DNA from: Punctularia strigosozonata HHB-11173 SS5
Taxonomy: Eukaryota > Basidiomycota > Agaricomycetes > Corticiales > Punctulariaceae
Length of the DNA: 64,000 nucleotides
Assembly (NCBI RefSeq): GCF_000264995.1
Contig: NW_006767443.1
Location: 734,170-798,169 of the forward strand
Reading direction: 5' to 3'
In this document: positions 29,453-35,344 of the stretch, one piece after another
Layout: each line of letters begins with the position of its first letter
Numbering within the stretch: position 1 is the stretch's first letter
Notes under the pieces: model-generated
What the model saw: the letters and a program-made list of their open reading frames with translations, nothing else
Database searches by the model: none
Told to the model about the DNA's origin: nothing
Position numbers and translations under genes: made by a program

Positions 29453-32400
29453 TCATGATGACTTGAGGGTGACCTCGGATAGCGTCCGGAACGCCTCCTT
29501 ATACGCATCGAGGAGCGCCTTCACCCGCGTCCGCTCGGCAACGAGCTCCTCGTCCTCGTTCAGCAAGTCGCCGAACATATCGGGTTTGTACAAGGATGCC
29601 ACGAGGCGATTTTGGACGTGCTGCGACGTGTGGTTGACAAGGAAGTGCATGACGGCTTTCGGGACGAGGTCCTGTATCGTCTGTCGGACGATATTGAAGT
29701 ACGACGCGAGGAGAGTGCGGATGAGGTTCGTCTCCATCTCTTCGCGCATCGTGACTTGTAGGTTACCGTCTGTAGGGATCTATCCAAGCGACTCAGTGAA
29801 GGACTGTAATAGGTTTGACACAACGCCTCTTACCGCTTCAATGTGTTTGCCAAGGCTCTTCATATCAAACGCCGCACCGCTTCCGTCTCGCCTTCCAGCC
29901 ATAATCCCTGAATGCACGCTCGGATCCGGCCCGTTCACGTCGCGTCCAGTGCTGACGATCGCGCCCGGCGCGTCGTGGGCGGAGATCGTGCGTTCTATGC
30001 TCGACGCCGAGATCGGACCAGGCCCGTTTTGCCCGAAGAAGTAGTTGAGGAACGTGTCCTTCGCGGTGCCCGACCCGCCGGACGTGCCGGACGAGTGCCG
30101 CACGGTATGGGAAGAATGGGTGGAATGGTGGTGGCGGGAGACGGTGGCGTTGGCTCCGCGGACCGTGGACCCTGTCGTTGTCCGTGTCCGATCGTGAATG
30201 GTGGATGAAACAGAACGGGCATCGGCATGGCCTCCGAGGCCGTTCACGGCATTCCCATCGACGGATTCGTCGTCATCCGTCGGCGACAGCATGCCGTTGA
30301 TGGGCTCTGTCGACGAAGGCTGACAGGACCTGCGATCAGCCTGGAACACGGGTTATACAAACTAAACGCTTACTCGGGCTGGTGAGACGGCCTTTCGAGG
30401 TGGCTGATGTGAAGTCGTCGCTTCGCGCGCAGCATTGTCGGAGCTGGCGATAAACGCTGGGTGGTTTGTGTTGATGTACGCAACTTGAATATCGATCAGA
30501 CTTTGCGTGTACTCGGACGTAGGGCCGAGTCGTTCCCGCAACAGCTCCGAGACGACGTCCACGATCTGCGCATGTAACCGCGGGAAGCGTTGCAGCTCCT
30601 GCAAGGAAGGAACCATTGAGTTCATGTAGCGTCACCACACTCCAATCAGTACTCGCACTCACCGCACCCGCACAATTGTGGCAGATCTTCACCAACTCCT
30701 CGTACACTAGCTCGACGCACCGCAGGGCCGGGGCCTCGAGCAGCTTGATCTGCGGCTTCACCAGCAGGTCGAAAGCGACTTCGGGGACGAACAGGCTGGG
30801 CCGTGGCCCGGTCGAGTTGCGGATGGCTGTCCGTATGTCCTGATCTTCGAGGTTGGCCGTGGAGTCGATAGAGGCGAGCGCGTGCCCGAAGACGTCATTG
30901 AATATGTAGTAGAGCCGCGCCCCGCCAGAGAGCTCTTTCGTGGATATGTCGGGGTTCGTGCCTTCGATCGAGGAGACGAAATCCCGCGCGAAGGTGGTCA
31001 TCAACCGGAGAACGAGGGAACCTTGCTGCAAAAACGCAAAACGCGAAAGAGGGGAACGTCAGGGCTCCCGGTCCAATGAGAGAAGGATGTTGCCATACTT
31101 GATTCGAGTCTCCGAAGACCGCCGAATCTCCAAAGGAATTGAGTTCTTGTTGCGCTTGACCCATCAGGGTATTCAATCGCGCTTTCATGTCCGGTAACTT
31201 TTCGCGAATATGGTTCATCAAGACCTAGGAAAATAGAAACATCTTCTGTGAGCATCTCCCGTACATTCCATGTCCCGCTCGGACCACATGAAATGTGAAG
31301 GTCACCAGACATGCAGGCAAGTTCACAAGGACGTACATGGTTCAGGGTCTTGGCCAAGTACTTCGTTCCATTCTTATGCGCGATGTTCCTGTACGCAGGA
31401 TGGGTCTTGAAGAACTCCTCCTCGCTCTCCCGTGCTTCAACAAGCTCCTTCCCGACATTAATGTCCTGTTGGCTCCGGTTCACAACGCCAATAAAGCCGA
31501 GCTTTAGCGGATAGACGCGGCCTGTGAGGATGTCGAGTGCGTTGGTACCGGCATCCATCAGGTCGAGTTTCGTGAGAACACCGATGGTTCGTCGTGCCTG
31601 AGGGTCCACAGAACGAGCGAGCTTCAAGGATTCAGAGTTGGCAAGGTCGACGTTGGCGGCAGAGACAGCGAGAATGATGCTATGACGGACGTGAGAAGAG
31701 CATATGCAGGTCTCTCCTGTAGAACGTACCAGTTCGGTTTCGAGATGTAGTCCAGGACCAAATTGCGAATCTGCTTCTCGATGTCGCTCGGTTGGTCTCC
31801 GACAGGGATCTGGACGCAGCATTGAGAACTGGTTCCGCAGGATAGATATCTCCTTTCTACTAACCTTCGTCAAGCCTGGTAGATCCACCAACGTCAAGTC
31901 TAACACGTTTGGGCTGTAAATCCTTAGGTTGATCGGCAACTTGCTGATACCCTTGTTCTGGCCGGCGACCCGAAACGTCTCCTGTTCGATCTCGCGCCGA
32001 ATCTCGTTGAAGTCGGTGAAGCGCTTGTCGATATGCAAGAATTGGCCCCATTCCGTGAACCCGGTCGGCGCGTCGGATGCGGGCTGGTGGATGAGCTGCA
32101 GGACTAGCGGCCGGCGGGTCACGATACCGGAGCCGCGAGGCAGGAAGTCGCGACCGACGATGCTACAGGGAGAAAACGAGTTCAGTATAGTGGAAAGAGA
32201 ACCGACAGAAGGACATCGTACGTCTCGAGCACGCTGGACTTGCCCGCAGATTGACTGCCGACCTACACCGATCCCGAACATATGCTTCAGTTTCAACGAC
32301 AATGTGCACCGAGACCACCGCACGCACCACAGCCAACTGGGGCATGTCCAGCTCCCCTCCTGTCGTCCATAAATCAGCCGCGCATTCCCTGCGCATAAGT

Positions 32401-32914: not shown

Positions 32915-33885
32915 CTAGATGGCCTTGCTCTTAACGAGCTCTGTAGAACGGCGTCAGACACGGAAGCACGAGCGAAACATGTTTGCAGCAAAGAACCTAC
33001 GTTCGACCTCTGCGATCGCACCCGCGAGGATCTCCTTCTGCGTCTTCTCGTCCTGGATGCTCTTGAGCACGTTCTCGATGACGTTCTTCGCCAGGTCCGC
33101 CTGCTCGCTCTCCTTCTGCTGCTGCTCATACCGCACCCAGCTGTCGAGCACTGCCTTGACCTCCGCCGCGAGCGCGACCTTCTGGTTCTGCACGAACGCC
33201 TCGGACTCGAGCTTGGCGGTCTCCTGAGTATAGTAAAGTAGCCGCAACAATAATGATGAGTCGTGCAAACACGGATCTGCGGCACTCCAGACGTGCCTTG
33301 GAGAGCGCGAAAAGACCCTCGGTGATCGACACCACGTCCTTCATCTTCTCCACCGAGCCGATGCGGTCCTTCACGGCCTGCGTGTGCTCCGTGCGCGACG
33401 CCTCGAGCACGTCCTTGATGCGCTTGATGTGCCCCTCCGCCCAGTTCTTGTACGGCTCCTTCATGCTCCGCGCGATGAACGTCGCCAGGATCGCGAACCC
33501 GACCGCAAGCACCGTCTCCTCGTTGAGCACGTACAGCTCCTGCGAGATGGCGGTCGCGAGCAGGCCGGTGCCGAGCACGACCGAGCCCGTCTTGGTGACC
33601 AGGCCGGGCGACGAGGGCAGGTTGTTGATCAGCTCGGACGCCTTTTCGGCCGGAGGCTTGGTGGCCATCGTGCGGCTAATCATCAATGGTAAATCTTAGG
33701 TACATGTATGGCCTTGACCGGTAGACTGCATGTGCACGTACGCATGGATTGCGCCCGACACGGCGGGGACTACCCGGCGAGGAGCTGTGACAAGTCCCAG
33801 TCAACGTCGGTGGCTCCCTGAGGAGAGTCTAGTCGGTATACACACCAGCGGCGCGCGCGGCGCTGAGGGCTATTCTAGAGGCCAT
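32915..33885 (-). CDS. ATP4: Mitochondrial ATP synthase subunit 4 (subunit b)
   Basis: Peripheral-stalk subunit b of F1Fo ATP synthase, anchored in the inner membrane by two N-terminal helices. The mature part reads KASELINNLPSSPGLVTKTG, LLATAISQELYVLNEETVLA, VGFAILATFIARSMKEPYKN and WAEGHIKRIKDVLEASRTEH, then a long coiled coil. The last intron (33003 to about 32945) turns an apparent stop into EVEQLVKSKAI with TAG at 32917-32915. Upstream, MASRIALSAARAA at 33885 looks like an import presequence and joins over a proposed 151-nt intron (33845-33695) to DLPLMISRTMATKPPAEK. That first intron is long for this locus and is the weak point. If wrong, translation would begin at 33686 or 33671. A transposon inserted about 180 bases upstream of the start. 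Confidence 0.88.
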
Positions 33886-34059
33886 GAAGTGCTGGCGGAC
33901 ACAGTGAACGGTATGAGTGCGATATTTCCCGAAGTAGAGGAAGAGCTAGGGCAGGCTCGGCTCTAGCTCCGTGGGAAAGATAGCAGTCACGGTTCACGTA
34001 AGCACACAGCCCACATCAATGCTCGGTGCTGTTGTCTACGGGCCTGAACGAGGAAGCTC

Positions 34060-34068
34060 AGAAAGTCG
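34060..34068 (+). repeat. Left 9-bp target site duplication
   Basis: AGAAAGTCG lies directly outside the left terminal inverted repeat and is repeated in the same orientation directly outside the right one (35336-35344). Confidence 0.9.
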
Positions 34069-34285
34069 CAGGCTCCTTAACCAGCCGCTCGTATCGCGTC
34101 GAACTCCCAAATCCTAGGGCGGTAGTCAATGTTGTAACAGAGTAATAGATCATGTGAACTCAGGGGTAAATAATCATGTGATATTTCCTTTTATATCCTG
34201 AGCTTGGGGGAGTACGACGCGATAGAGCGGCTGGCGGATCTCGTATTTCAAATTCTCGGCTTCGCTCGGCATACCCGCTCAAGAA
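34069..34285 (+). repeat. Left terminal inverted repeat (217 bp)
   Basis: Begins CAGGCTCCTTAACCAGCCGC and ends ACCCGCTCAAGAA. It is the reverse complement of 35119-35335 over its whole length. It contains an inner palindromic unit at 34081-34234 bounded by CCAGCCGCTC and GAGCGGCTGG. Confidence 0.92.
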
Positions 34286-34389
34286 CGAGCATGAGGTTGG
34301 AAGAAAGTATGGTGGCTGTGCCACAAATCAAGCCCGTTGTGGGTGCTACTACTGGGGTCCTAACACGTCCACCAAAGCGGCGTATACTG

Positions 34390-34600
34390 ACTGTGTCTCT
34401 AGCAGCACGTGTCAAGGAAGTTCCGAGGTCGTCGAAGTCCTCCTTGGGGATGTTCTGCGCCTTGCTGATCCGGAAGGAGAGCTCGTTCAGTGCGGAGAGG
34501 ACCACGCTCGCGTCGAGCGAGGGCCCTGCGGAAGCGCTGGCTGCGGCCGAGGCGCACATTCTCAATGGGGGTGTTGGACGGGGAAGAACTTGCTGAGGCA
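34390..34600 (-). pseudogene. Gene fragment inside the transposon
   Basis: On the minus strand a frame reads SAAASASAGPSLDASVVLSA then LNELSFRISKAQNIPKEDF and DDLGTSLTR, with strong coding character. It then loses sense after a GC-rich boundary. There is no full gene, and the parent was not found within this window. This is best read as host exon sequence captured by the element. I do not recognise its family. Confidence 0.55.
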
Positions 34601-34659
34601 GCGACGGAGTGTGGGCAATGTACCTATATAGGCTTGCGTGGAAATAACGATTGAACCAC

Positions 34660-34740
34660 AATGACGAAGTGGTTATTGCGTAGTGTTTGAGCTCCTGTTT
34701 TTGCAGGAAGGCACAGGTTCGATCCCCGGCTGTTGCCTCC
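34660..34740 (+). other. tRNA-like (Pol III box B) block 1
   Basis: ACAGGTTCGATCCCCGG matches the internal box B consensus of tRNA genes and sits about 50 bases after a weak box-A-like GCGTAGTGTTTGAGC. A cloverleaf with a proper acceptor stem could not be drawn. It is probably a tRNA-derived remnant or SINE head. Confidence 0.35.
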
Positions 34741-34807
34741 TGTTGTACATTTGTCCAGTGCTATACCTATAAACAAGGTCATATACAATTACGCTCCAAA
34801 CAGCATC

Positions 34808-34900
34808 GATGCTGTGTTAGCTCAGCGGTTAGGCGTCTTTTACTATTGGTTTTGGTGGCAGTCCGCCTCGCGCGTTCGAGTCCGCGCATTGCATCTCTTT
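34808..34900 (+). other. tRNA-like (Pol III boxes A and B) block 2
   Basis: GATGC at the 5' side pairs with GCATC at the 3' side. TTAGCTCAGCGGTTAGG resembles a D-arm/box A, and GCGCG-TTCGAGTC-CGCGC forms a T-arm-like hairpin with box B. The run TCTTTTT follows as a possible Pol III stop. The T-loop is 8 nt and the anticodon arm is unclear, so this is a degenerate tRNA-like sequence, not a confident tRNA. Confidence 0.4.
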
Positions 34901-35118
34901 TTAACAACTGTTTCCTCCTGCTTCCCTCCTCACTTTTGCTCAGGCTGCTTGCTCTCGTACTTAGGGTGCTTACTCTGCTAAGGGAGTGATTTTTACTGTA
35001 ATATGCATTGGACCGGCCTGAACTGTCGAAACTTCTTGCAATTAGGCTGCGGCGGGCCTCGGGGTCCTTGTGGCGGTGCTTTGTATGATGCCGGATTACG
35101 CTTTCGGAATAGGCGTGT

Positions 35119-35335
35119 TTCTTGAGCGGGTATGCCGAGCGAAGCCGAGAATTTGAAATACGAGATCCGCCAGCCGCTCTATCGCGTCGTACTCCCCCAA
35201 GCTCAGGATATAAAAGGAAATATCACATGATTATTTACCCCTGAGTTCACATGATCTATTACTCTGTTACAACATTGACTACCGCCCTAGGATTTGGGAG
35301 TTCGACGCGATACGAGCGGCTGGTTAAGGAGCCTG
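35119..35335 (-). repeat. Right terminal inverted repeat (217 bp)
   Basis: Reverse complement of 34069-34285, read base by base without a mismatch noticed. It is followed immediately by the duplicated AGAAAGTCG (35336-35344). Confidence 0.92.
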
Positions 35336-35344
35336 AGAAAGTCG
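35336..35344 (+). repeat. Right 9-bp target site duplication
   Basis: AGAAAGTCG follows the right terminal repeat directly, matching the copy at 34060-34068. Confidence 0.9.

Follow-up and report, generated by a model that had tools for sequence, protein, structure and literature searches.

An arm-bounded transposon carrying a host-gene fragment in Punctularia strigosozonata is probably a Pack-type derivative of an AcademH-like element

AcademH is a lineage of the Academ superfamily. It is described as a helicase source and as low-copy in Basidiomycota, Ascomycota and Mucoromycota (PMC10799480), and the available text of another source, citing Kojima 2020, gives it target duplications of 9 or 10 bp, against 3 or 4 bp in AcademX, lengths related there to helicase and nuclease (PMC10045372). 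Mutator-like elements (MULEs), in the portion of the source consulted, have duplications of 8-11 bp and terminal inverted repeats often hundreds of bp long (PMC6446971). An excerpt on the Marasmius oreades genome notes putative non-autonomous MULE and Academ elements together (PMC8290104). Here we describe an element of 1267 bp (34069-35335) in a 64,000-nucleotide stretch of the basidiomycete Punctularia strigosozonata HHB-11173 SS5 (contig NW_006767443.1), referred to as the window, and conclude that it most likely derives from an AcademH-like DNA transposon, as a non-autonomous element of Pack type. A limited literature collection yielded no paper on P. strigosozonata together with a transposon and terminal inverted repeats.

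The element consists of two long arms and an interior, between two copies of a short target sequence:

34060..34068, no strand: left copy of the target site duplication, 9 bp, AGAAAGTCG
34069..34285, plus strand: left arm, 217 bp, with terminus CAGGCTCCT
34286..35118, no strand: interior, 833 bp
35119..35335, minus strand: right arm, the exact reverse complement of the left arm
35336..35344, no strand: right copy of the target site duplication, 9 bp

The arms are reverse complements at 217 of 217 positions with 0 mismatches, and their complementarity ends at both sides, the bases no longer pairing at offset -1 or, toward the interior, from offset 217. The exact duplication abuts the element on each side; the chance of a 9-bp match at a fixed junction is 4^-9, or ~4e-6. 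The left flank (33700-34068) has a single match in the genome, which is itself. An earlier reading of the window, made from its sequence only, had claimed identical arms, a directly flanking 9-bp duplication and a complete non-autonomous transposon, all of which hold. No transposase was seen inside, where a Pfam scan of the longest (137 aa, partly in an arm) of nine listed open reading frames (ORFs) of at least 50 aa returned no match at E <= 1.

A search of the 33.57-Mb genome, the only fungal genome compared, with positions 34060-34400 as query gave 13 matches, which resolve to the window copy, four further insertions (C4, C9, C19 and C31) and two long elements (C7 and C1). A second complete copy lies at C4:807.5-808.7 kb with a duplication of its own, GATCGGCGT. 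The C9 insertion is compound (L011 1052-3183), comprising a partial copy, 388 bp between and a whole copy, with one 9-bp duplication, GCCATTGTG, at its outer ends. The C19 and C31 copies are readable at one end each, the latter being cut by the contig end. The long elements measure 6788 bp at C7 (L013 1196-7983, duplication ATGTCAAGC) and 7657 bp at C1 (L014 1067-8723, duplication TGTCGCCTC). The duplications of the copies are unrelated in sequence to one another. Among nine elements of this and related kinds readable at both ends, six carry an exact 9-bp duplication (the window copy, C4:807 kb, the C9 outer ends, C7, C1 and an element encoding DUF6589 at C4:249-255 kb), one has 8 of 9 bases (a sister element at C15), and at two, the C5 DUF6589 element and an inverted-repeat pair at C4:1150-1156 kb, no 9-bp duplication was found. 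A lack of 9-bp duplications at other copies, named beforehand as grounds for refuting the earlier reading, was thus not what the search showed.

The C15 element belongs to a sister family whose arms are 70-78% like those of the window over parts. Of the 11 matches obtained with its arm as query, two belong to the C15 element and the rest lie at C1, C8, C9, C10 and C14; among those outside C15, C14:646.6 kb was the one read. The sister element (L061 749-2046, 1.3 kb) lies within a MULE-type element (L061 655-5813) whose ends are 36 bp long. A MULE at C3 (L062), 91-93% identical to the C15 MULE in long blocks, is continuous at this point and lacks the sister element, with a single target copy that differs by one base from the left copy at C15. 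Because this paralogue shows the empty site with a single target, at least this sister element inserted with a 9-bp duplication.

For the long elements at C7 and C1 the analysis covered the readable edges, one of which in each element starts a RecQ-like helicase. A 60-residue peptide from the C1 edge was found at C1, at C7 (100% over 59 residues) and in a gene at C5 (63% over 48); alone it gives a weak Pfam DEAD match (E 0.095). The score of the C5 gene is above the DEAD cut-off, and this gene is also similar to RecQ models and to WRN/BLM. At the other C7 edge, 43 residues match the N-terminus of DUF6589 from its first residue (E 1.8e-6). Among 118 peptides, each 20 residues or longer, translated in all six frames from the window element and the four edges, it alone gave this match. 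Its score is 21.9 bits, and 1000 shuffles reached no more than 11.3; a corresponding start was not seen at the readable C1 edges. Apart from ~17 bp adjoining the arm, the interior of the window element does not match the edges of the long elements where these can be read.

Across the genome, PF20231 (DUF6589) gave 13 matches at seven places, and a convergent helicase gene or piece adjoins it at six of them (C5:326, C4:252, C2:730, C14:638, C4:1153 and C19:60 kb); no helicase was found in the readable part of the seventh, C5:310 kb. The C5 DUF6589 element spans 6685 bp, with arms 98-99% alike over two blocks and the termini CAGGCTCCT at both ends, as in the window element. So far as its position can be fixed, the C14 element has CAGGCTCCT at its right end too. 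At C4:248891-255006 an element with DUF6589 and helicase has arms of ~240 bp that are 98% alike, other termini (TAGTCTCG) and an exact duplication, GCGTCGCGG (18 shifts tested, chance ~7e-5). For the longer ORF of the C4 helicase, neither PDB (threshold 0.01) nor NCBIfam (threshold 0.1) gave a match. Six of the 24 listed ORFs of the C5 element were scanned and showed no XPG nuclease domain. AcademH is not known to encode the XPG nuclease, unlike AcademX. The C5 element also holds a highly repetitive Gly/Asp-rich frame (L053 1693-2979), overlapping and following its RecQ-like helicase, with no Pfam match.

DUF6589 is listed in Pfam as a family of unknown function, and one search returned 634 proteins at E <= 0.001. 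A profile search against PDB sequences gave chance matches only (E >= 0.22), and Foldseek alone gave no match at E <= 0.001. The best structural matches of DUF6589 models were the P element and hAT (Hermes), at 10-14% sequence identity, a predicted fold suggesting that DUF6589 may be a DDE enzyme. No paper naming DUF6589 turned up in the limited literature searched.

The combination of a helicase and 9-10 bp duplications is the one described for AcademH, and AcademH-like is therefore the best name for the parental elements. The window element has the 9-bp duplication; the helicase lies in the parental elements, at the edges of C7 and C1 and at six of the seven DUF6589 places, and is absent from the window element itself. 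Exact arms, the duplication, dispersed copies, ends common to the long elements and a host-gene fragment form the basis for its assignment, and larger relatives elsewhere in this genome most likely supply the transposase and helicase that it lacks. We infer that DUF6589 may be the Academ transposase.

The arms indicate how the derivative may have arisen. The two ends of C7, and likewise those of C1, are ~75% alike. The window arm agrees with one of them, the A end of C7 and C1, at 198 of 215 aligned bases (92%), and with the other end of C7 at 154 of 204 (75%); at arm positions 61-125 the counts are 49 of 54 for the A end and 14 of 44 for the other. As the window arms are nearer the A end, we read the derivative as having two A ends, both arms coming from one parental end. 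Comparison of the readable edges of C7 and C1 revealed a switch in agreement. Up to arm position 205, left agrees with left and right with right (203/205 and 194/196), and from 206 to 465 the agreement is crosswise, the left edge of C7 matching the right of C1 (250/250) and its right edge the left of C1 (226/230). This pattern, read in edges of elements whose cores differ in length by ~0.9 kb, is what a core inversion through an ~80-bp segment common to both arms would give.

Identical arms had also been taken as a sign of recent movement, a claim that proved weak. Arms are identical within each of the three copies with both arms readable (C11, C4 and C9), and differ between these copies by 1, 4 or 5 of 217 bases, with the same differences in both arms. 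The C9 and C19 arms are identical, and the C31 arm differs by 1 to 6 from the others; the interiors are ~95% (C4) and ~93% (C9) identical to that of the window copy. Arms alike within copies and different between them point to arm identity being no clock here; homogenisation or the mode of copying fits as well as age does.

The interior contains a host-gene fragment and several boxes resembling those of RNA polymerase III (Pol III) promoters:

34425..34557 (interior 140-272), minus strand: host-gene fragment, 133 bp, ~43 codons, 78% identity
34662-34679: A-box-like sequence TGACGAAGTGGTTATTGC, upstream of the first B-box-like site
34717..34726, plus strand: B-box-like (Pol III) site GTTCGATCCC
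34818-34831: A-box-like sequence TAGCTCAGCGGTTA, before the second B-box-like site
34874..34883, plus strand: second B-box-like site GTTCGAGTCC, then TTTTT at 34898-34902

The fragment bears out the Pack-type part of the sequence-only reading. It matches 142 bp of a gene at C14:110.8 kb (PUNSTDRAFT_107380), with 78% identity over 142 columns; across the 43 codons that align, identity is 60%. A database search with this gene returned 37 matches at E <= 1e-3, of which 29 are named fungal proteins (its own entry among them), and the direction of transfer is therefore likely to have been from host to transposon. The fragment is also present in the C4 and C9 copies, which with the window copy are the three spanning it, so its capture would predate the spread of these copies.

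Two B-box-like sites (GTTCGANYCC) occur in the interior of each non-autonomous family, at 34662-34902 in the window and at L061 ~1200-1600 in the C15 element, and in both families A-box-like sequence lies upstream and the second site is followed by a T run. At least two such sites arose in 1 of 2000 shuffles for the window and 0 of 2000 for C15, the pattern having been chosen after reading the sequence. The motifs are above chance and are reported here as unexplained. tRNA genes were considered and rejected: ARAGORN found 0 at default settings and, among the folds listed under relaxed thresholds, only weak overlapping ones in and near the arms. Rfam gave no tRNA match in the window interior (E <= 5), the C15 element or the C9 interior (E <= 10), and only chance matches to long non-coding RNAs.

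Two further motifs lie within the left arm:

34092..34108, plus strand: subterminal motif, inverted relative to 34208-34224 of the same arm, 17 nt, 94%
34188..34197, minus strand: TATA-like motif reading outward, CCTTTTATAT on the plus strand

The core of the subterminal motif, AGAGCGGCTGGC, is found too in the C5, C14 and C15 arms, and may be bound by the transposase. The TATA-like motif CCTTTTATAT, which could be a promoter, recurs in the C15 arms as well as in the A-type arms of both long elements, C7 and C1. In the left arm it points toward a mitochondrial ATP synthase b-chain gene (33126-33686, minus strand; PF05405, E 3.6e-24), whose ORF starts ~380 bp from the insertion. A dynamin-family gene (PF00350 and PF01031) lies at 31001-32323 on the minus strand.

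The structure of these elements is consistent with mobilisation in trans. In such a pathway, a parental element encoding a DUF6589 transposase and a RecQ-like helicase would act on the CAGGCTCCT ends together with the inverted subterminal motifs, and its enzymes would excise the element and join it to the target with a 9-bp stagger. During repair of a broken parental copy, the A end was probably copied to both sides, and other DNA, including a scrap of host gene and tRNA-like pieces, probably filled the space between the two A ends.

An unlikely alternative is that elements with DUF6589 and RecQ form a separate, unnamed DDE superfamily with 9-bp duplications, of which the window element is a Pack-type derivative. 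The unknown function of DUF6589 in Pfam, the silence of the limited literature on it and its predicted fold, nearest to the P element and hAT, would accord with this. AcademH as described, with its helicase, 9-10 bp duplications and occurrence in fungi, nevertheless fits without a new superfamily.

The sequence-only reading had named the element Mutator-like, that is, a true Pack-MULE moved by a MURA-type transposase, which we now regard as improbable. A duplication within 8-11 bp and long terminal inverted repeats (217 bp) agree with the description of MULEs, and the MULE domain PF10551 occurs at three places in the genome. However, with 7.2-7.6 kb read at each, none of these lies in an element with the present arms in the readable sequence, and PF00872 has 0 matches in the readable genome sequence; a MURA-type transposase bordered by these arms, suggested earlier as a target for search, was thus not found. 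The PF10551 element at C15 has 36-bp ends of other sequence, and no 9-bp duplication was found for it; the sister element described above is inserted in it. The long elements that do share the ends of the window element begin a helicase at one edge and, in the case of C7, DUF6589 at the other. Long arms with 9-bp duplications are not confined to MULEs either, as the helicase and DUF6589 element at C4:249-255 kb has both. The PF10551 locus at C10 has inverted repeats of 29 bp, with a repeat of 8 bp situated 10 bp outside them.

Membership of KolobokH, another fungal DNA transposon lineage, is very improbable. Kolobok elements target TTAA, whereas the duplications here are 9 bp long and unrelated in sequence. 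In the excerpt consulted, KolobokH encodes RecQ and is found only in fungi, and a red-alga Kolobok has RecQ on the complementary strand (PMC9587614), an arrangement like that here, where the helicase and DUF6589 genes converge. An assembly artefact or chance palindrome, for which nothing was found, has next to no probability, given copies at five places with different flanks, duplications that differ wherever both sides are readable, and the empty site known for the C15 sister element.

Beyond the AcademH-like assignment, a broader picture is conceivable, although we lean against it as a whole. DUF6589 might supply the DDE transposase for a distinct superfamily, or for AcademH without Pfam recognising it. 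Its elements would nearly always be accompanied by a convergent RecQ-type helicase, make 9-bp duplications, be able to swap their two sides when their arms recombine, and give rise to Pack-type derivatives bearing one end twice, captured host DNA and Pol III-like boxes. Fungal elements filed as MULEs for their long arms and 9-bp duplications alone could in that case be misfiled. Long arms with a 9-bp duplication invite the MULE label, and here the same structure goes with helicase and DUF6589. If the AcademH-like reading is right, it would give a function to DUF6589, show gene capture by a helicase-bearing cut-and-paste element type in a fungus, and provide a test case for the role of RecQ-type helicases in DNA transposition.

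Compared with known systems, the window element resembles AcademH, as far as the sources consulted describe it, in the helicase of its parental elements, in the 9-10 bp duplications and in being reported from basidiomycetes; it differs in encoding neither protein and in having long perfect arms and a captured gene fragment. Like Pack-MULEs and other Pack-TYPE elements, it is a non-autonomous element with terminal inverted repeats carrying a piece of host gene, but its probable parent is not a MULE, and its captured segment is old (78% identity, in the three copies spanning the region) and no longer than 133 bp. P element and hAT (Hermes) transposases are the best structural matches of the DUF6589 models, although the alignments reach just 10-14% sequence identity. 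P elements and hAT have 8-bp duplications and are not known to encode a helicase. The Marasmius oreades genome, also of an agaricomycete, presents a similar ambiguity between MULE and Academ, and differs in that the excerpt consulted mentions neither gene capture nor DUF6589 (PMC8290104).
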